Source: a virus. From it: DNA of 24,030 nt. Numbering within the stretch: position 1 is the first letter of the stretch; every line of letters starts with the position of its first letter. The notes beneath the pieces were generated by a model that made no database searches, was not told the origin of the DNA, and worked only from the letters and a program-made list of their open reading frames with translations. The stretch covers positions 1-24,030 of the IMG/VR virus record IMGVR_UViG_3300020451_000580. The stretch is one strand, 5' to 3'. This document shows positions 3,238 through 17,780 of the stretch, in pieces. Made by a program: the position numbers and the translations under genes.

Positions 3238-3726
3238 ATGCCAGATTTAATAGATCCTTCAGAAATAATGTTCACTCCGTTTGAACCGAAAACGAAAAAT
3301 CGTTTCATTATGTATATCGAAGGAATTCCTGCCTATCTGATAAAGACAACTGGTCGTCCACAAATTACTTTTGAGGAAATTGAATTAGACCATATCAATG
3401 TAAAACGGTACGTGAAAGGTAAAGGTGCTTGGGATACTTTAGACGTAACTCTGTATGATCCGATTGTACCATCTGGCGCACAAGCGGTAATGGAGTGGGT
3501 TCGTTTACATAAAGAATCCGTTACTGGTAGAGATGGATATTCAGACTTCTATAAAAAAGATGTTACATTTAATGTGTTAGGTCCTGTAGGAGATAAAGTT
3601 GAAGAGTGGACACTAAAAGGTGCTATGATTCAGACTGCTAACTTTGGTGAGATGGATTGGAGTGTTAGTGAACCTGCAGAGATTAGTTTAACGCTACGTT
3701 ACGATTACGCTATCCTACAATTCTAA
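3238..3726 (+). CDS. 19: Tail tube protein (gp19-like)
   Basis: This is the major tube subunit through which DNA passes, stacked in rings inside the sheath. At 162 residues it matches T4 gp19 (163 aa). The sequence has the expected small beta-barrel make-up: PFEPKTKNRFIMYIEGIPAY near the start, 'TTGRPQITFEEIELDHINVKRY' in the middle, and a C-terminal strand 'SEPAEISLTLRYDYAI'. The start ATG follows TAGGAG (3225-3230). Its position after the sheath and before the chaperone and tape measure genes is the normal order in contractile-tail modules. Confidence 0.93.
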   Translation: MPDLIDPSEIMFTPFEPKTKNRFIMYIEGIPAYLIKTTGRPQITFEEIELDHINVKRYVKGKGAWDTLDVTLYDPIVPSGAQAVMEWVRLHKESVTGRDGYSDFYKKDVTFNVLGPVGDKVEEWTLKGAMIQTANFGEMDWSVSEPAEISLTLRYDYAILQF

Positions 3727-3735
3727 GGAGTTTAT

Positions 3736-3945
3736 ATGAGTTTTTTAAGAGAAATGCTTTCCAGTGATGCAAAGATTTCAAGTAAAAGGTTTGTCGGTTT
3801 TATGGCATTCTTTATGTTAATTTGTAGTTGGGGTGCAGACACCTTTTCTACATTTGAGGTAAAAGATAAAATACTAGAATGTTTTATGTATATCTCAGTA
3901 GTTGGACTAGGAGTTACAGCTGCAGAAAAATTTGGTAAAAAATAG
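3736..3945 (+). CDS. Small two-helix membrane protein, holin-like (69 aa)
   Basis: The ATG at 3736 follows AAGGAG (3725-3730), which overlaps the end of the tail tube gene. Two hydrophobic helices are visible, about residues 19-34 and 46-63. The N-terminus is polar and charged and the C-terminal end is basic (EKFGKK). This size and layout resemble small phage holins, which form pores in the inner membrane for lysis, but no lysin gene lies in the window and no family signature is certain. Its place inside the tail module is unusual for a lysis gene, so another membrane role is possible. The gene itself is well supported by its ribosome site and tight spacing. Confidence 0.7.
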   Translation: MSFLREMLSSDAKISSKRFVGFMAFFMLICSWGADTFSTFEVKDKILECFMYISVVGLGVTAAEKFGKK

Positions 3946-3979: not shown

Positions 3980-4738
3980 ATGGCTGAACACTCATTTCCA
4001 ACTGAGATGGTAGATTTACCGTCAAAGGGTTGGTTTTATGATAGTGACAACCCACTTTCAAGTGGTCAAGTTGAACTTAAATATATGACCGCTAAGGAAG
4101 AAGATATTTTAACATCCACAAACCTTATTAAAAAGGGTATTGTGTTCGATAGATTACTGCAAGCATTGATTGTTGATAAGAAAATCAAATATGAAGATAT
4201 TCTAATCGGTGATAAGAATGCAATAATGGTTGCTGCTCGTATATTGGGTTATGGTAAAGACTATCAAATTCAGTATCCACATCCAGATACGGATGAGCTG
4301 GAAGAGGTGATGGTTGATTTAACAAAACTAAAAGATAAGAAGATTAATCTCAAAGAGTACACTAAAGGTGTAAATGAATTTGAAATGTCATTACCAGCAT
4401 CTAAGAGAGTTATCACTTACAAACTACTGAGTCAGAGAGATGAAAGAATTATTGATGCTGAAGTAAAATCAATGAAGAAAATAAATCCTGATGTAGATCC
4501 AGATATCACTACAAGACTAAAGAAAACTATTCTTTCAGTAGATGGTGATAATAAAAAACAAACGATAAATCATTTTGTCGATAACGAATTTCTATCAAGA
4601 GATGCTCTTTACTTTCGTACAGAATTTGCTAAGATGACTCCTGATGTTGATATGACTACTGATGTTGTATTTTCAGATGGGTCAGAAAGGAGTATAGGCG
4701 TCCCGATGACGCCTGGGTTTTTTTGGCCTAACGGCTGA
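3980..4738 (+). CDS. 26: Baseplate hub / tail assembly protein, gp26-like (252 aa, zero frame)
   Basis: The ATG follows TAGGAG, 35 bases after the membrane protein. The segment near the N-terminus (LPSKGWFYDSDNPLSSG, then LKYMTAKEEDILTS) is typical of proteins annotated as gp26-like baseplate hub or assembly subunits in T4-type phages. The protein is soluble, charged and mostly helical. In the zero frame it stops at TGA 4736-4738, just after a TTTTTTT run. Downstream, a gp51-like frame continues without a start codon. The gene lies between the tube and tape measure genes, where tail assembly chaperones made by frameshifting sit in many phages. The gp26 family call is fairly firm; the chaperone role is inferred from layout. 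Confidence 0.8.
   Translation: MAEHSFPTEMVDLPSKGWFYDSDNPLSSGQVELKYMTAKEEDILTSTNLIKKGIVFDRLLQALIVDKKIKYEDILIGDKNAIMVAARILGYGKDYQIQYPHPDTDELEEVMVDLTKLKDKKINLKEYTKGVNEFEMSLPASKRVITYKLLSQRDERIIDAEVKSMKKINPDVDPDITTRLKKTILSVDGDNKKQTINHFVDNEFLSRDALYFRTEFAKMTPDVDMTTDVVFSDGSERSIGVPMTPGFFWPNG
4696..4724 (+). promoter_or_regulatory. Hairpin plus T7 run at the gp26/gp51 frame junction (slippery site or terminator-like)
   Basis: A perfect 7-bp stem, AGGCGTC (4696-4702) with GACGCCT (4708-4714), closes a CCGAT loop. GGG (4715-4717) and seven T (4718-4724) follow. The zero-frame codons across the run are GGG TTT TTT TGG. Moving +1 or -2 on the T run enters the downstream gp51-like frame. The same shape would also pass as an intrinsic terminator, or as a site for RNA polymerase slippage, which a preceding hairpin can promote. 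The sequence alone does not choose between these. Confidence 0.65.
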
Positions 4739-4958
4739 GTTCAAACCAGAAATTCACGAAGAAATATTTAATCTATTATATTACTCTAACGGCTCATTCA
4801 GCTTTAGAGATGTCTATAATCTTCCAGTTTATTTAAGAAAGTTTTATATGAAACGATTAATTAAGGAAAAGGAAACTGAGAAGAAACTCGCAGAAGAACA
4901 AACAAAAAAGATGAAATCTAAAAAAGGTATGTCTAGACCAGCAATAACTAAAAGATAA
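4710..4958 (+). CDS. 51: gp51-like baseplate hub assembly frame, probably expressed by +1/-2 frameshift from the gp26-like gene
   Basis: The frame opens after TGA at 4707-4709 and ends at TAA 4956-4958. The conserved part reads AEFKPEIHEEIFNLLYYS, then a short Gly/Ser stretch, then RDVYNLPVYLRKFYMKRL, and ends in a charged helix. This matches my memory of the gp51-type hub assembly catalyst in T4-like phages. No ATG, GTG or TTG occurs in the frame before or within the conserved block; the first ATG is at about 4848, after it. Independent initiation would therefore lose the recognisable domain. Joining at the T run gives a protein of about 325 residues (248 from the upstream frame plus 77). 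A homopolymer sequencing error that split one gene is the main alternative. Confidence 0.75.
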   Translation, partial: RLGFFGLTAEFKPEIHEEIFNLLYYSNGSFSFRDVYNLPVYLRKFYMKRLIKEKETEKKLAEEQTKKMKSKKGMSRPAITKR

Positions 4959-5261: not shown

Positions 5262-7157
5262 ATGGCTTTATCACCAGAAGATGCTAAAAAGTTAAAAGAC
5301 CAGATAAAAGAGACTGAAGATTTAGCAAGTAAATTTGCTGGAGATATGAAAACAGTTGAAGCTCTTGTTAAAGGAACTGCTTCAAATTTTGGAAAAATTG
5401 TTGATTTAGCTGGTAAACTTGACTCTGCTTCAAAGAAAGAAAAAAAACTTCGTGAGGATATTAGAGATTTACAGAAAGAAGTACTAGAAAATGCAGAAAA
5501 TATAGGAACGGAAGAATTCAAATCATTAGATGTGGCTACTAAACTAGCAAAAGCTCGTAGAATGGGTGATAAAAGTTTAGTAAAACAATTAACTCATTTA
5601 AAAGACATAAATAAACTTCAACAACAACAAAATAAGCAGCTTACAGCAGCTGCTAATTTGATTAAAAAACCATTTGAAGCACTAGACTCTGCCATCCGAC
5701 AAATCCCTGTTATCGGTGAGCTATTAGGAGATGTTGCTGATTTTGGTGGATTGGGTGATAACATAGCTCAAGGAATGATAGAGGGGTTTACATCAGGTTT
5801 AGTAGAAACCAATTTTTCTAGAATGATGGCCACTACTTTTAACAGTGCTGGTAGACTCATTGACAGAGAGTCTGGACAATTTGTTAAACAAGGATTTTTT
5901 ATTATGATGATTACCAGAATCAGAGAGGGGTTAAATAGTTTAAGCGGTTCTTTTAGTAGCTTAACACTTTCTGGAAGAGCATTTACTGGAATTCTTGTTT
6001 TAGGAGCAGCTGCTTTAGTTAAGATGGTTGCTTCATCTGTAAAGTTTGCTAATGAAACAGGTTTGGCTTACAGTGACATGCTTCGTATGGGTCCTGCTCT
6101 ACTTTTTAATGCTGATGCTGTAAAATCATTTGCTGATGAACTTGGAACAGTAAATAATTTAACTGGAATGCAGGCTCTTAGATTACAACTTATAGAAAAA
6201 AGATTTGGATTGAGTGCTGAATCAGCTGCTAAATTATTTGCTGTACAGAGAGGTATTACTGGTGTAACTATGGACCAGTTTATATCACAACAAAAAACTG
6301 TTGGTTTGTTAGCTAGACAAGCAGGAGTTGCTCCTAAAGCAGTATTTGATGATATGGCTCAAAATGCTGAGTTTATTGCTAAATTTTCAGATGCTACAGG
6401 AGATAGTATGGCTAGAGCTGCTATTGAGGCTAGAAGAATGGGTATAAATTTAGGTAAGGTTGAAAGTATTGCCGAAGGATTATTAGACTTTGAAACTTCT
6501 ATAGAAAAACAAATGGAAGCTCAAGTTCTTTTAGGTAGGTCTATTAATTTAGATAAAGCTAGAGAATTATTTTTTAACAATAAGTCTGCTGAAGGACTTA
6601 GAGAAGTAGCTAATCAGCTTGGTGGTATAGGAAAGTTAAATGAGATGGACTTCGTACAGAGAAAAGCTATAGCAGATCTTTTGAATATTCAAGTAGGTGA
6701 TTTAGCTAAAGTAATGGGTGCTCAAGAAGGTGTAAATGAAGCCACAAAGAAAAGTGTTTCTGGAGCAGTAATGTTAGGTATTGGACTTGGAGCTGCGGCT
6801 GGTCTTGCTGCAGCAATAATTCCAGCTATGATTAGTACTATTCCTGGTTTACAAAAAGTTGGTATTAGACAATTAGGAAAGGGTTTGGCTGTGGTTGCTG
6901 GTGGTGCAGCAGCTGGTGGTGTTGCTGGTGGTATGATAGGCGGATTTATGACAGAATCTAAAGGAAAATTGCCAGAACTTGCTAGTGGTGGTGTAATAGT
7001 AGGAGAAAGAGGACCAGAGGTGGTTGCTCCATTACCAAATCAAGGTGTAAATGTAGATAATAGCGGTATGGAAAAAAGAATGGATATGTTAATGGAACAG
7101 AATCAAGTTTTAATGAGAAGATTAACTAACACAGTAGCTGATATGAAAATGGCATAG
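5262..7157 (+). CDS. Tape measure protein (gp29-like role)
   Basis: This protein would set tail length by extending inside the growing tube. Its layout fits the class: a charged coiled coil at about residues 5-135, long alanine-rich helices, hydrophobic stretches near residues 240-262, 502-526 and 540-563, and a C-terminal segment SGGVIVGERGPEVVAPLP close to the 'GEaGPEaV' motif common in tape measure proteins. A short helix ends it. At 631 residues it is near T4 gp29 (590), which suggests a tail of about T4 length. The ATG lacks a strong ribosome site and lies 2 bases after the preceding stop, so translation is probably coupled. The role rests on motif, composition and gene order. Confidence 0.85.
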   Translation: MALSPEDAKKLKDQIKETEDLASKFAGDMKTVEALVKGTASNFGKIVDLAGKLDSASKKEKKLREDIRDLQKEVLENAENIGTEEFKSLDVATKLAKARRMGDKSLVKQLTHLKDINKLQQQQNKQLTAAANLIKKPFEALDSAIRQIPVIGELLGDVADFGGLGDNIAQGMIEGFTSGLVETNFSRMMATTFNSAGRLIDRESGQFVKQGFFIMMITRIREGLNSLSGSFSSLTLSGRAFTGILVLGAAALVKMVASSVKFANETGLAYSDMLRMGPALLFNADAVKSFADELGTVNNLTGMQALRLQLIEKRFGLSAESAAKLFAVQRGITGVTMDQFISQQKTVGLLARQAGVAPKAVFDDMAQNAEFIAKFSDATGDSMARAAIEARRMGINLGKVESIAEGLLDFETSIEKQMEAQVLLGRSINLDKARELFFNNKSAEGLREVANQLGGIGKLNEMDFVQRKAIADLLNIQVGDLAKVMGAQEGVNEATKKSVSGAVMLGIGLGAAAGLAAAIIPAMISTIPGLQKVGIRQLGKGLAVVAGGAAAGGVAGGMIGGFMTESKGKLPELASGGVIVGERGPEVVAPLPNQGVNVDNSGMEKRMDMLMEQNQVLMRRLTNTVADMKMA

Positions 7158-7166
7158 GAGAATATA

Positions 7167-10100
7167 GTGGCATTAAAAGATTTAACATCGGATTTATCAA
7201 ATTTTAAGTATGGATTAACATCTCCTGATAAAATAGATAAGCAAATTGAAAAGGGAGTTGATTTCTTTCCTAATGATGATGCTGATGGGTTCACGCCTAA
7301 GACAGATTTAGAAAGTCGTTTTAAGAGAGTACCCACAGGTATAGATAAACAGATTGAAAATGGAGTAGATTTTTTTTCTAACAATGATGCTATAGGATTT
7401 GTTACAAATAATCCAAATTTACCATCAGATTTTCAATTACCCTCATCACCTAAGAGTGGGGATGTGGGAATTACAATAAATGACGGAGAATCTCCGGGTG
7501 AGATTGCTATTGGTACTGAAGCTGCTGGGGGTTCATTCTTTCATATGGTAAGGGATGGTGTTGTTGGTAAAAAATGGCCTGAAGCTGCTATATCATATGA
7601 TAAAGATAGATTTGGTTCATTTGATAAGTATAGTATTCCATCAAATTATGAGCAAAAAATGGTTGAGGAATTTGATACCTTCTACCCTACTTGGGAAAAC
7701 ACTACACAATTCACATCACCATTTATGACAACACCTTTATCAGACTATGTAAGTAGATATCCAACAAATCCCTCATTAACTTGGGGAGATGAAGATGGTA
7801 CTATGTTAGGTCCTGTTGGGTTGCGTATACAACCACAATTTACTTCACCATTTATGGCAACGCCAATTCTTGGTTATGAGAGTAGGTATGTGCCAGTAGG
7901 TAATGTAGACTTTTCTTTGACTTGGAATGAAGACCCTAGAGGAATTATGACAGGTCCTGTTGCTGGTGTACCAATTAGTTATGAAAAGACAAGAGATGTT
8001 TATCAACATCACTTTTTAGACTCACCATTTGAAAATATATCCTTAAATACTGATTTGTTCAGTCCTGTCGGTGGATGGAAGCTGGGTTCTATAAATATTT
8101 TTCCCAACGATGTAAAAGCACCGATAGGTAACGATAATTTGCTAGGAACAGACCTAAATAGAATTACAAGTCCCTCTACAAACTTTTTGAACCCTCTTAT
8201 AACTAATCCATCAGTATCAAGCACTTTGGCAGTAAATCCCATAAATTCTTCTCAACAACTTTCTGGTAGGATAACTGCTAAATCGGATTATACTGGTGCA
8301 AAGAATGTTGGACCTTTTATTTTTACTGGAGACAATGTGTTAGATTTGAACACAATGACTTCATCAGATAAAATAGCTAGTATTACAGAATTACATAGAT
8401 TTAGTAGTGAAAATGGTGGAACAAGACAATTCCTAAATGTGCCTGCTGGTTTAGACCCTAATATGAATTTAATAACTAAACCATATAGAGAGGTTTCTGA
8501 TCCTTTCAATATTGCTGGTTTCGCACAACCATTTATACTCAGACCATTTCCAGACGATGATGGGGTTGCAGGACCTGGTAATGGTAGATGGGGATTTGAT
8601 GCGATAACATCCGAAACAGGAATTGTTGGTACTCTTTTGGCTGGAGCAGATGGTTTATTGGGTGGTTTTTTTAGGGGCGCACCAACATTTACTGGTTTAA
8701 TTGAGAGAAATATTGTTGACAAAATAAGATTGGGTAAATTCTTATTGAGTCCTGCTGGTATAGGATTTTTAGGAAAACAGTTTGTTTTACAAGGACTTAA
8801 TCCTACCATAGAAAGTAAAGTTTACAATCCAATATCTGCTTTAAATATTCCTCTTGGTGTGATAACAGATCCAGAGGGTGCGGTACAGGCAGGTGGTGTT
8901 AGTGGACTTGCCGCACTGATTGCATCAGTAGCATTACCCATAGCACATACTGAAAGGCATTTAGGTGGTGCTAGATACGAAAGTATGATTTTAGGAACAG
9001 GTGGTAGCAGAATAGCAAATCAGGCAAGAGCTTTTTCTATCGGTAATGAAGTTATAGATGAAGTCACAAGTTTGATTCCATCTATTAACACAGGAATTTC
9101 ATTTTTTGATAATTTTGTTAATACAAATATTAATAATCTGATTTCTACATTGGATGCCGCTACAATTACACCTATATTTGGATTATCAAATCCTAACAAA
9201 TATGCTTTCCCATTTTCATCTGCCCCAAAGTCTGTTAAGGATGGTAATATTTCATTTTTCGGTTCAGCCGATCTTGCTCTAGCAGATGTTGAGTCTGCTC
9301 TTGGTAGAGTTGTACCTGGAACTACCAATGGTGGAACTTTTAATGATCAAACTGCTAATAATCTTCCTAATGATGAAGATGGATTAGTTAAAAGACATTC
9401 AACTTTAAGTTACAATGAATTGAATTCTAACAACAGTTATGGAACAAGTGTTCTTGTAAGCCCGTCAGAAAAAAAAGAACTAGAACTTGGCATTTATCCT
9501 GGCGGATTGGTAGCAGGTGCTGAAAATAGACTGAACACACGCTTAGAGGGAAAAGATAAAAATGATGATATAGGAAATCCAGCTTCACCTGCTCCCATAA
9601 TACTTGAAAAAGATCTGGGACTTATAAAAGGAGATACTAGGTCTGCTAATGTTGATGCTGTAAATATAACACCATATGCTGCTACAGTAGATGGTGAGAT
9701 TATACACCACAATTATAATAAGGGTGGTATAGAAACAAAAGATTTTATAAAATTTAGATTCAAAGATGTTGTAAATAATAAATATATTATATTTAGAGCA
9801 ATTCTTGATGGAATATCAGACACCATAACACCCGAATATGGTGAAGAAAGGTATATTGGTCGTCCAGATAAAGTGTATGTTTATCAAGGAACTGATAGGT
9901 CTGTGGCTTTTAACTTCAAAGTTTATCCGAAAACAAAACAAGAGATGCCAATTCTTTTAGAAAAAATGAATTATTTAGTTGGGTTGTGTTATCCATCATA
10001 CACAAAGGGTGAAAGAATGATAACACCATTTATGGAATTAACTATGGGTGATATGTTTGTTGATACACCTGGTTTAATGGAGAGTGTAACTGTTACTGTT

Positions 10101-10475
10101 GAAGATGCCACAACTTGGGAAATAGAAAATGGTTTACAATTCCCACATTTTATATCAGTTGCTTGTACGTTTAAACACATTGGAAAATATATATTAGCTG
10201 GTAAAGGTAAACACTATGATTTAGGTTGGTTGGCTGATGGCGCTGAAGGAACTCAAGAACAAAGATTTGGACCACAGATAGGTATAGGGTTTAATAATTT
10301 TCCAAATAGAACTAAGTATAGAGAATTATTTTCACAGTTTGGTCAGGCGGAGTATTATGATTTAGGTAATGATGGACAATACAAAAAGTGGGAAAACCCA
10401 AACAATAGTATTGCTGAAACTGTAACTGATGCTGCAGCTGGAATAGGTAGTTTTTTTAACCTTGGAGGCGATTAA
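7167..10475 (+). CDS. Large tail tube initiator / baseplate-tube junction protein (gp48/gp54-like C-terminus)
   Basis: The GTG start at 7167 follows TAGGAGA (7155-7161), which overlaps the stop of the tape measure gene. Residues about 835-1020 form a tube-like domain (FIKFRFKDVVNNKYIIFRAI, then ERYIGRPDKVYVY, YPKTKQEMP, LVGLCYPSY, then FKHIGKYI). That pattern is typical of the T4-like baseplate-tube junction proteins that start tube assembly. T4 gp48 and gp54 are about 320-364 residues, so most of this 1102-residue protein is a long extension. Its N-terminal third holds two pairs of short repeats; residues about 430-620 include Gly- and Leu-rich stretches. The junction role is well supported for the C-terminal part only; the extension is unrecognised. 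Confidence 0.75.
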   Translation: MALKDLTSDLSNFKYGLTSPDKIDKQIEKGVDFFPNDDADGFTPKTDLESRFKRVPTGIDKQIENGVDFFSNNDAIGFVTNNPNLPSDFQLPSSPKSGDVGITINDGESPGEIAIGTEAAGGSFFHMVRDGVVGKKWPEAAISYDKDRFGSFDKYSIPSNYEQKMVEEFDTFYPTWENTTQFTSPFMTTPLSDYVSRYPTNPSLTWGDEDGTMLGPVGLRIQPQFTSPFMATPILGYESRYVPVGNVDFSLTWNEDPRGIMTGPVAGVPISYEKTRDVYQHHFLDSPFENISLNTDLFSPVGGWKLGSINIFPNDVKAPIGNDNLLGTDLNRITSPSTNFLNPLITNPSVSSTLAVNPINSSQQLSGRITAKSDYTGAKNVGPFIFTGDNVLDLNTMTSSDKIASITELHRFSSENGGTRQFLNVPAGLDPNMNLITKPYREVSDPFNIAGFAQPFILRPFPDDDGVAGPGNGRWGFDAITSETGIVGTLLAGADGLLGGFFRGAPTFTGLIERNIVDKIRLGKFLLSPAGIGFLGKQFVLQGLNPTIESKVYNPISALNIPLGVITDPEGAVQAGGVSGLAALIASVALPIAHTERHLGGARYESMILGTGGSRIANQARAFSIGNEVIDEVTSLIPSINTGISFFDNFVNTNINNLISTLDAATITPIFGLSNPNKYAFPFSSAPKSVKDGNISFFGSADLALADVESALGRVVPGTTNGGTFNDQTANNLPNDEDGLVKRHSTLSYNELNSNNSYGTSVLVSPSEKKELELGIYPGGLVAGAENRLNTRLEGKDKNDDIGNPASPAPIILEKDLGLIKGDTRSANVDAVNITPYAATVDGEIIHHNYNKGGIETKDFIKFRFKDVVNNKYIIFRAILDGISDTITPEYGEERYIGRPDKVYVYQGTDRSVAFNFKVYPKTKQEMPILLEKMNYLVGLCYPSYTKGERMITPFMELTMGDMFVDTPGLMESVTVTVEDATTWEIENGLQFPHFISVACTFKHIGKYILAGKGKHYDLGWLADGAEGTQEQRFGPQIGIGFNNFPNRTKYRELFSQFGQAEYYDLGNDGQYKKWENPNNSIAETVTDAAAGIGSFFNLGGD
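7233..7400 (+). repeat. Two-copy in-frame repeat, 'IDKQIE.GVDFF..' module
   Basis: Two 60-base copies at 7233-7292 and 7341-7400 are offset by 108 bases. They encode IDKQIEKGVDFFPNDDADGF and IDKQIENGVDFFSNNDAIGF (residues 23-42 and 59-78). Most amino acids match while codons differ at many third positions, which points to an old duplication kept for protein sequence. The copies lie at the start of the 1102-residue tail protein. Confidence 0.85.
7707..7958 (+). repeat. Two-copy in-frame repeat, 'QFTSPFM.TP' module
   Basis: Copies start at residues 181 and 224 (bases 7707 and 7836), a period of 43 residues. Each reads QFTSPFMxTP, then a Tyr-x-Ser-Arg-Tyr segment, then SLTW, an acidic turn and a Met-x-Gly-Pro-Val end. 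A weaker third element, HHFLDSPFENI, follows at about base 8010. They look like short tandem structural modules in the N-terminal extension of the tail protein. Confidence 0.75.
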
Positions 10476-15792: not shown

Positions 15793-16485
15793 ATGAAAAG
15801 TCAAGTCTTAGATAAAGGCTTTATTGAGGTTGTTGATTCATTAGGAAATGATTTAACAGTCGTCAATTCAGCTCGAGTATCATTCGGTAAAAGAAAAAAA
15901 TATTGGGATAAGTCAGATGAAAGGTTAGTTCGCTATCTGGCAAAATACAAACACTATTCCCCTTTCAGACATTTACAGGTTCAGTTTCATATCAAAGCAC
16001 CTGAGTTTGTTATGAGACAGTGGTATAAGCATGTAGTAGGTATTGAGACTACATCAAATAGTTCTACCAAAGATCATGCTTGGAATGAGATTAGTGGTAG
16101 GTATGTTGTTGTTGAGGATTTTTACACACCAGAAGTATTTAGAAAACAATCAGAAGATAACAAACAAGCAACAGAGGGAGCGGTTGAAGAACAAGATGTT
16201 GCAAGACATCATTGGGAAACTGCTATGTTTCATATCGATACACAATATAAAAAGCTACTACAGATGGGTGTAGGTAAAGAACAAGCAAGAGCTATCTTAC
16301 CATTGAATCAATACACAGAGGTTTATTGGACAGCATCGTTTCAAGCCGTTATGAATTTTATAGAGTTACGAAATGAGAAAACATCTCAATGGGAAATACA
16401 AGAATATGCCAGAGTTATGTTAGATTTAATGAAAGAGACATTTCCAAAGATAACTAAAATATGGAGTGAAGCACACAATTGGTAA
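15793..16485 (+). CDS. thyX: Flavin-dependent thymidylate synthase ThyX
   Basis: ThyX methylates dUMP to dTMP with methylene-tetrahydrofolate, FAD and NADPH, feeding dTTP to phage replication. At 230 residues the length is typical. Visible signatures are HYSPFRHLQVQFHIKAP (54-70), the substrate-binding region from R75 to Y104 ending in AWNEISGRY (the ThyX 'RHR...S.NE.S.RY' motif, here RQWYKH with a longer spacer), and ARAILPLNQYTEVYWTAS (165-182). The start ATG has only a weak ribosome site (TAAGGTT upstream). It heads a tight operon with the polymerase gene, whose start overlaps its end. The call is firm. Confidence 0.93.
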   Translation: MKSQVLDKGFIEVVDSLGNDLTVVNSARVSFGKRKKYWDKSDERLVRYLAKYKHYSPFRHLQVQFHIKAPEFVMRQWYKHVVGIETTSNSSTKDHAWNEISGRYVVVEDFYTPEVFRKQSEDNKQATEGAVEEQDVARHHWETAMFHIDTQYKKLLQMGVGKEQARAILPLNQYTEVYWTASFQAVMNFIELRNEKTSQWEIQEYARVMLDLMKETFPKITKIWSEAHNW

Positions 16486-17780
16486 TAGTTGAATCTCATA
16501 AAGAATGGGAAAAGTTTATAAAAGAGTTTAGAAAAGAAAATTCTATTGTGATTCCTATCCAATGTGATAAAAACAAGCACCCGTTGGATACAAAATTGTG
16601 CCTGTTGTATGTTAAGCTATTAGATGGTGATCTTGAAGAGTACATTCTCCCCTTCAGACACTCAGATGCTACAAACCTAAAAGATAAGTACATTAAAAAG
16701 ACCTCCACAAAAAAAGATGTGTTTACATATGATAAAAAGAAATTACTTCATTTTGTAAAATGGGAAAATATAACAGACATGCAGATGTATTACTATATGA
16801 TAAAAAATGAACCATTACTCGTTGATGATGTAACCACTAATGCTCATGAATATTTTTACAGAACACATTATAAAACTAAGAACATTAATTGTGTAATTCC
16901 AATGATGAAGCATATAGAATGGTGTAGAAAATTAGTTGATGTTCTGAAATTAACTGTACTTTTAAAACCAAGTAGTGCTAGTGTATTTAAAATTTACAAT
17001 GATGATGTAATTGGCAATTTACAATACATAGAACGGAGTGGATTAAAAACCGATAATGGAATGGTGTATTCAGAATACAATCCCTACACTGCTACTGGTC
17101 GTCCGTCTAATAGATTTGGCGGATTGAACTTTGCTGCTCTAAACAAAAAAGATGGAAGTCGTAAACAATTTATTAGTAGATTTGGTAAGGACGGTATGTT
17201 GGTTGAGATGGATTATGATGCTTATCATTTAAGGTTAATCGGTGATGCAATAGATTATAAGTTTCCAAATGGTTCTGTACATAAACATATGGCTAAATTG
17301 TACAAAGTAAATTATGATGAAGCAAAATCACTATCATTCCAATATTTGTACGGACACATACCTAGTGATGTGTTAAGAAAAAATCCCTTTTTCAAAAGAG
17401 TTCAAACATACATAGATGCCATTTGGAGTGACTATAAATCATCAAATTCCATAAAGTCTGATATTTATAATAAATGGATAAGAAAAGAAAATTTGTCCAA
17501 TATGAATAAGAATAAGTTATTTAACTATCTTATTCAACTAGCAGAAACAGAAAGTAATATGAGGATGCTTACAAAGCTAATACCTAAAATAGATGGTTAC
17601 AAAAGTAAATTAATTTTGTATAGCTATGATTCTTTTTTATTTGACTTTTATATGCCAGATGGTTTAGATTTCATACATAAAATGAAAAAAATCATTGAAC
17701 AAGGTGGTAAGTTTCCTGTAAAGGTAGGTAAGGGTTGGAACTACCACGAAATGAAAGACATAACGGAGAAATTTAAATGA
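16479..17780 (+). CDS. Compact divergent family A DNA polymerase (433 aa)
   Basis: A likely TTG start at 16479 overlaps the thyX stop by 7 bases; no in-frame ATG occurs until codon 101. The polymerase core is clear: TATGRPSNR (204-212), motif A VEMDYDAYH (242-250, Asp245), motif B EAKSLSFQYLYG (281-292, Lys283), and motif C SYDSF (382-386, Asp384). Both catalytic Asp are kept. Compared with E. coli Pol I, the motif A Glu710 position is His250, the paired Arg before motif B is lost, and His-Asp-Glu of motif C is Tyr-Asp-Ser. The N-terminal part (about 1-130) resembles a 3'-5' exonuclease fold but lacks the Asp-x-Glu of motif I. Classic T4 uses a family B enzyme; the far-T4 phage RM378 is known for a separate family A polymerase domain. 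Confidence 0.85.
   Translation: MVIVESHKEWEKFIKEFRKENSIVIPIQCDKNKHPLDTKLCLLYVKLLDGDLEEYILPFRHSDATNLKDKYIKKTSTKKDVFTYDKKKLLHFVKWENITDMQMYYYMIKNEPLLVDDVTTNAHEYFYRTHYKTKNINCVIPMMKHIEWCRKLVDVLKLTVLLKPSSASVFKIYNDDVIGNLQYIERSGLKTDNGMVYSEYNPYTATGRPSNRFGGLNFAALNKKDGSRKQFISRFGKDGMLVEMDYDAYHLRLIGDAIDYKFPNGSVHKHMAKLYKVNYDEAKSLSFQYLYGHIPSDVLRKNPFFKRVQTYIDAIWSDYKSSNSIKSDIYNKWIRKENLSNMNKNKLFNYLIQLAETESNMRMLTKLIPKIDGYKSKLILYSYDSFLFDFYMPDGLDFIHKMKKIIEQGGKFPVKVGKGWNYHEMKDITEKFK

Follow-up and report, generated by a model that had tools for sequence, protein, structure and literature searches.

Positions 4718 to 4726 of the window, the 24,030-base viral contig IMGVR_UViG_3300020451_000580 (positions 1 to 24,030) that carries T4-type tail genes, probably constitute a programmed +1 ribosomal frameshift site, and gp26 and its frameshifted product gp26-51 would correspond, in the T4 superfamily, to gpG and gpGT of lambda; from comparison of sequences, we put the probability of this reading at roughly five in six. 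An earlier note, made from the letters of the window, had proposed a frameshift at this junction, and this interpretation is supported by the site, the frame, and the extension all being kept in relatives; the chaperone role that it gave the two products we infer from gene position, homology, and predicted fold, as set out below. No prior report of frameshifting between gp26 and gp51 was found in the open-access literature searched.

The gp26-gp51 junction in the window and its relatives

In the window, the gp26-like gene ends just past GGG TTT TTT TGG CCT, with a run of 7 T at 4718-4724 (Table 1). A second frame, +1 (equivalently −2) relative to gp26, is open from 4710 to 4958 and closed upstream by a TGA at 4707-4709. 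It holds no ATG, GTG, or TTG before or inside the conserved block, its first in-frame ATG coming after the block, and its near-cognate codons are CTG at 4713 and ACG at 4731. The ORF reading thus agrees with the frame layout described in the earlier note, the TGA at 4736-4738 and the missing start included, and its product sizes, 252 residues for gp26 and 325 for the gp26-51 fusion, were also correct.

Table 1. Features of the gp26-gp51 region of the window
Feature	Positions	Strand	Remarks
Tail tube protein gp19	3238..3726	+	phrog_4542 3.9e-29; upstream landmark
gp26-like gene	3980..4738	+	252 aa ORF, end VPMTPGFFWPNG (...GFFWPNG); body, short form of proposed tail assembly chaperone
Shine-Dalgarno-like AGGAG, candidate stimulator	4688..4692	+	30 nt 5' of T run
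Upstream hairpin TAGGCGTC-CCGAT-GACGCCTG, candidate +1 stimulator	4695..4715	+	8 bp; ends just 5' of slip site
Proposed shift site TTT TTT TGG	4718..4726	+	P-site UUU 4721-4723 would re-pair at 4722-4724; then GGC 4725-4727
+1 frame extension, gp51-like C-terminal domain	4725..4958	+	77 residues post-shift, GLTAEFKPEIHEEIF...YNLPVYLRKFY...
Zero-frame stop TGA	4736..4738	+	shortly 3' of P-site codon
Probable tail tape measure protein	5262..7157	+	631 aa; by position and size; same-place gene annotated tape measure in immuto and LIS04

We infer that the shift occurs in cells, with an efficiency such that most ribosomes would terminate at 4736-4738 and release the 252-aa gp26. Some would pause with peptidyl-tRNA on UUU 4721-4723 and UGG in the A site, slip forward by one base onto UUU 4722-4724, and continue with GGC CUA ACG to yield the 325-residue gp26-51. 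At a +1 junction of this kind, FF or FL would be followed directly by GL, and the window product would read ...PGFFGLTAEFK... (SIGVPMTPGFFGLTAEFK).

Relatives of this junction were taken from IMG/VR as loci confirmed by tblastn (the best 80 of 599 candidates, with 3 more obtained via the extension), and a later round added more distant loci, most of which carry TTC TTT TGG; annotated isolate genomes were also read at the gp26-gp51 junction. The site tally comprises 102 sites, the window included, the other 101 coming from relatives in which the motif was located. Because similarity of gp26 guided the choice of loci, some of which are closely similar, counts are also given for a non-redundant set of 66 sequences sharing <80% identity.

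Three features, the +1 relation, a stop close by, and the extension, were kept in 101/101 relatives with a located motif. In far-T4-type loci, gp26 ends in an FF[WYF]P-like motif written TTT TTT TGG CCT or a close variant of it, and the zero-frame stop follows 3 to 6 codons past the two shift-site codons in 66/66 non-redundant sequences. The +1 frame is open for 62 to 114 codons at the junction in every far-T4-type locus (62 to 113 in the 66 sequences); inside the gp26 genes of the 66 sequences, only 0.075% of positions open a +1 frame of at least 60 codons. The sites were TTT TTT TGG in 70 of the 102 cases, TTC TTT TGG in 14, TTT CTT TGG in 9, and TTT TTT TAC in 6, with TTT TTA TGG, TTT CTA TGG, and TTT CTA TTC occurring once each. 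The shift codons therefore have the form YUU-U(GG/AC), that is, [TTT/TTC][TTT/CTT]T and then GG or AC, in 99/102 sites, and the other three (TTA TGG, CTA TGG, and CTA TTC) re-pair poorly in +1. The isolates Flavobacterium phage immuto and Microcystis phage Mel-JY01 keep both the T run and the frame relation. Of these two elements of the earlier note, the frame relation is general among relatives, and the seven-T run is not the conserved core, since TTTCTTTGG and TTCTTTTGG also occur.

The codons at the site are biased in the 66 sequences: Phe is written TTT 124 times and TTC 0 times, compared with 513:120 (81% TTT) in the remainder of these genes, and Pro is CCT in 64/66, compared with a wobble T of 40% elsewhere, comparisons that are naive in that the sequences share ancestry. 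Dual coding explains the Pro bias, because the wobble position of this codon serves as the second base of a Leu codon in the +1 frame. Read in this frame, the extension showed dN/dS values of 0.06 to 0.32 in the eight closest pairs (dS <0.5), with a median of 0.57 over the full set of 416 pairs, which are mostly distant ones. ATG, GTG, and TTG were absent from 32/66 sequences over the stretch that begins at the upstream stop and reaches 14 codons into the extension, and in the others of this set start codons held no conserved position; the first +1 codons across relatives are mostly GGC, followed by CTA, CTG, or CTT. By these measures, the extension is under purifying selection at the protein level and lacks a conserved start codon of its own.

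The +1 layout is also kept in Bacillus phage SP-15 (L087:4605-4925), Listeria phage LIS04 (L088:4611-4916), and Streptococcus phage GXN1 (L089:4629-4994), where the junction takes a different form, NCC CGA TTY, compatible with NCC CGA or TTT C as the shift codon; in these three phages the extension is unannotated or annotated only as a fragment.

Two distant relatives among 104, L191 (2180-2560) and L196 (2180-2520), have a gp51-like gene with its own start, and in both the slip site is gone: L191 has TTC TTG TAT, and L196 has TTC CTT TGG CCA with the +1 frame closing at once. Their gp51-like domain lies in another frame as a separate gene that starts at an ATG of its own and has extra N-terminal sequence. 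This pattern is what would be expected if the site serves only for reaching the extension, and it shows that the fusion is not universally needed and that the domain can function unfused. Altogether, the sequence comparisons confirm that the layout of the gp26-gp51 junction is real and more than a product of chance.

Candidate stimulators and other routes to the extension

The hairpin region of the window folds with a z of −3.0. In relatives, a hairpin is formed at this place by differing sequences with partial compensatory changes and is strong in only part of them; a strict single register showed weak covariation, with one wobble pair at p about 0.01, and a general test of 5' structure was used in its place. 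Of the stretches sampled across relatives between −300 and +134, the interval from −30 to −1 had the most structure (mean −5.7 kcal/mol), with the lowest mean z near it (−0.76 to −1.04, elsewhere about −0.6 to 0.1). GGAG, GAGG, or AGGA was present at −36 to −16 in 46/66 sequences, compared with 20.7 ± 3.1 expected from resampling of synonymous codons. No conserved hairpin or pseudoknot was found downstream across relatives (mean z −0.35). On bacterial 70S ribosomes, a hairpin adjoining the E site promotes +1 shifting at CUUUGA, much as the internal Shine-Dalgarno sequence of prfB does (PMC6321510). In the window, the hairpin re-forming behind the ribosome, perhaps together with the upstream Shine-Dalgarno-like motif, would probably favor the forward slip.

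The extension could also be reached by a −2 ribosomal frameshift as in Mu, leading to the same frame with one extra Phe (junction PGFFFGLTAEFK); the Mu precedent speaks for this, as does the fact that on TTT TTT TGG the P-site tRNA could re-pair at −2 too. The variant sites make it quite improbable. On TTC TTT TGG and TTT CTT TGG the P-site tRNA would re-pair in +1 (UUU to UUU and CUU to UUU, respectively), whereas a −2 slip would place it on UCU and UUC, with poor pairing, and yet each of the 23 loci with these forms keeps the frame; in addition, 3' structure is not conserved, and the signals that we found fit +1 shifting. Because these two sites re-pair only in +1, we favor that direction, and of the "+1/−2" extension of the earlier note we retain the +1 and drop the −2. 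The same variants bear on slippage of the RNA polymerase, in which the T7 run, aided by a terminator-like hairpin, would give mRNAs with 6 or 9 U. T7 preceded by a GC hairpin does resemble an intrinsic terminator, a known aid to slippage, but TTTCTTTGG (9 loci) and TTCTTTTGG (14 loci) keep the frame relation with runs of 3 to 4 T, which argues against both transcriptional slippage and a homopolymer sequencing error, and we regard the former as very unlikely. As for the latter, by which the T run would be misread or misassembled and the locus would truly be one in-frame fused gene, homopolymers are error-prone, but the same relation recurs in the isolates immuto and Mel-JY01, in about 100 contigs, and in forms without a long T run; these comparisons refute such an error as an explanation for the whole family, and its chance of being correct is negligible. 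As a separate observation, the hairpin and T7 of the window (4695-4726) score as intrinsic-terminator-like within the tail operon (1 found, 0.6 expected).

A different possibility is that a separate gp51-like protein is initiated at a non-AUG codon (ACG at 4731 or CTN at 4728) coupled to gp26 termination, with the Shine-Dalgarno-like motif and the hairpin acting as an initiation signal. Both elements are present, L191 and L196 indeed encode the domain in a gene of its own with an ATG, and in some cyanophages an ATG lies just past the gp26 stop. Against it stand the absence of ATG, GTG, and TTG from 32/66 sequences, the lack of a conserved start position in the rest, and first +1 codons that are mostly GGC and then CTA, CTG, or CTT; moreover, it leaves the conserved wobble bases of YUU-U without a reason, and T4 gp51 corresponds to the full-length fusion. 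Separate initiation therefore has little chance of being the right explanation, and +1 frameshifting at 4718-4726 is the reading carried forward.

Relationship to gp26 and gp51 of T4 and cyanophages

The body of the window's gp26-like protein matched the baseplate hub family phrog_150 (3.8e-7), as did 61/63 sequences; its match to PF12322 (3e-4) lies under the gathering cut-off, that of SP-15 above it. T4 gp26 and gp51 both match PF12322 over its full length, and comparison of the gp51 profile with that of gp26 gave an E of 2.5e-20; by this measure the two T4 proteins are paralogues, and their genes (L091:5303-6729) are separate and divergent. When cyanophage gp26 and gp51 were joined at T_TTT_TTC, the fusion aligned with T4 gp51 from residue 7 to the end (E 2e-18), and the far-T4 fusion aligned with the cyanophage fusion with an E of 1.2e-7 over 272 columns, extension included. 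The link from far-T4 phages to T4 gp51 goes through the cyanophages because the direct profile match is weak (E 0.11). T4 gp26 stops at the position of the slip site (GLKEFFELL beside cyanophage GLQSFFA), and gp51 continues through it. The "gp51-like protein" of the earlier note is thus indeed gp51-like but amounts to the C-terminal domain only, profile comparison placing full-length T4 gp51 opposite the whole gp26-51 fusion.

All 80 of the 80 cyanophage-type loci have their gp51 in the −1 frame and carry T_TTT_TTC at the gp26 end. These loci (L092:11160-11364, L093-L172) mostly have a Shine-Dalgarno-like motif (GGAGGG) about 10 nt upstream, a start codon is sometimes absent, and in the S-PM2 annotation gp51 is a separate short ORF beginning inside the end of gp26. 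The cyanophage junction looks like a dnaX-style −1 frameshift. Sullivan et al. (2010) described cyanophage gp51 as being without the first ~200 residues of T4 gp51 and did not mention a frameshift (PMC3037559); the proposed −1 frameshift would account for the missing residues.

Extensions of the relatives matched weakly the tail assembly chaperone family phrog_32580 and the gp51 family phrog_634. Weak matches to DUF6760 (PF20546) were seen for 9/63 extensions (best 1.5e-4), and control genomes gave nothing above the cut-off. A search for relatives of SP-15 gp26 in bacterial genomes found none.

Frameshifting in tail chaperones was described in a 2016 review as widely conserved "except T4" (PMC5009743). 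The homology above makes it likely that the T4 superfamily is no exception to this rule, with gp26/gp51 corresponding to G/GT and far-T4 phages reaching the long form with a +1 shift, cyanophages with a −1 shift, and T4 with two genes after duplication, gp51 being the long chaperone. If so, gp26-51 would be the missing T4-superfamily version of a product held to be near-universal in long-tailed phages, and T4 gp51, a "hub assembly catalyst" of unknown function, would gain a proposed function as a long tail assembly chaperone. Annotation is also corrected, as the isolate genomes that we read miss the extension or list it as a small separate gene.

Proposed chaperone role and comparison with known systems

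The gp26-like gene sits between gp19 and the probable tape measure gene, with ORFs of 69 and 77 aa intervening. The tube-to-tape measure placement claimed in the earlier note was thereby borne out, upstream by the gp19 match and downstream by position and by the immuto and LIS04 annotation, the tape measure candidate having no family match of its own. The 69-aa ORF (3736-3945), between the tail tube and gp26 genes, has hydrophobic stretches and no PHROG match. Elsewhere in the window, a GTG-start protein of 1102 aa (7167-10475) carries N-terminal repeats of an IDKQIE.GVDFF motif, and a 433-aa ORF after ThyX (16479-17780) looks by eye like a family A DNA polymerase fragment; neither has a Pfam match.

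Every relative that has the site also has a gene layout for a short and a long form with a common N-terminal body. The body and the extension of the window's protein were modelled separately. For the body, AlphaFold gave a model (pLDDT 92) that matched the predicted baseplate hub of SP-15 and models of T4-like gp26/gp51 in BFVD (best E 8.5e-20); the extension model is helical (pLDDT 86), with fold matches that are weak and unrelated. Among solved folds, the top two of 519 chains for the body were YqbN (3KLU, Z 5.4), which we take to belong to the tail assembly chaperone class, and the HK97 tail assembly chaperone (2OB9, Z 4.0), both Z scores being low. Searching by sequence found no solved structure of T4 gp51. 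T4 gp26 and gp51 have been listed as hub assembly chaperones, with gp51 needed yet absent from the particle (PMC3004832). On the best reading of these observations, gp26 is the short tail assembly chaperone and gp26-51 the long one, and they would bind the tape measure protein and recruit the tube protein during tail assembly.

In this, they resemble the lambda G/GT type of tail assembly chaperone, reportedly described by Levin in 1993 and Xu in 2004 and reviewed in PMC5009743, in the placement between tube and tape measure genes, in the pairing of a short protein with a rarer, C-terminally extended form, and in a shift near the zero-frame stop. Lambda, however, shifts −1 on a heptamer, whereas the window would shift +1 at YUU-U with an upstream hairpin and within the T4 gp26/gp51 family. 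At the +1 sites of prfB (CUU U) and influenza PA-X (UUU C), the P-site tRNA re-pairs one base forward, and an upstream duplex stimulates the prfB shift. The window site would share this re-pairing, but the slow step in those cases is a stop or rare codon, and the far-T4 sites have UGG or UAC.

Closer by descent, T4 gp26 (baseplate hub subunit) and gp51 (hub assembly catalyst) belong to the same family but are encoded by two divergent genes with no frameshift needed, and cyanophage gp26 and "short" gp51 are the same gene pair in the same place but with a −1 shift at the invariant, dnaX-like T_TTT_TTC. One gene pair realized through a +1 shift, a −1 shift, or duplication in related phages would offer a natural experiment on the evolution of frameshifting. 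The HF1-group haloviruses and HSTV-2 likewise have tail chaperone genes in a +1 relation, placed between those for tube and tape measure, and a TTT-CGC shift site has been proposed for the HF1 group (PMC7230728); these are archaeal viruses represented by few genomes, and the likeness noted here is one of gene layout. Finally, gp143 and gp144 of phage 0305phi8-36 present G and GT as two genes through duplication (PMC2147016), the form that we propose for T4, although that phage is of another lineage and its proteins are small, helical, and lambda G-like.
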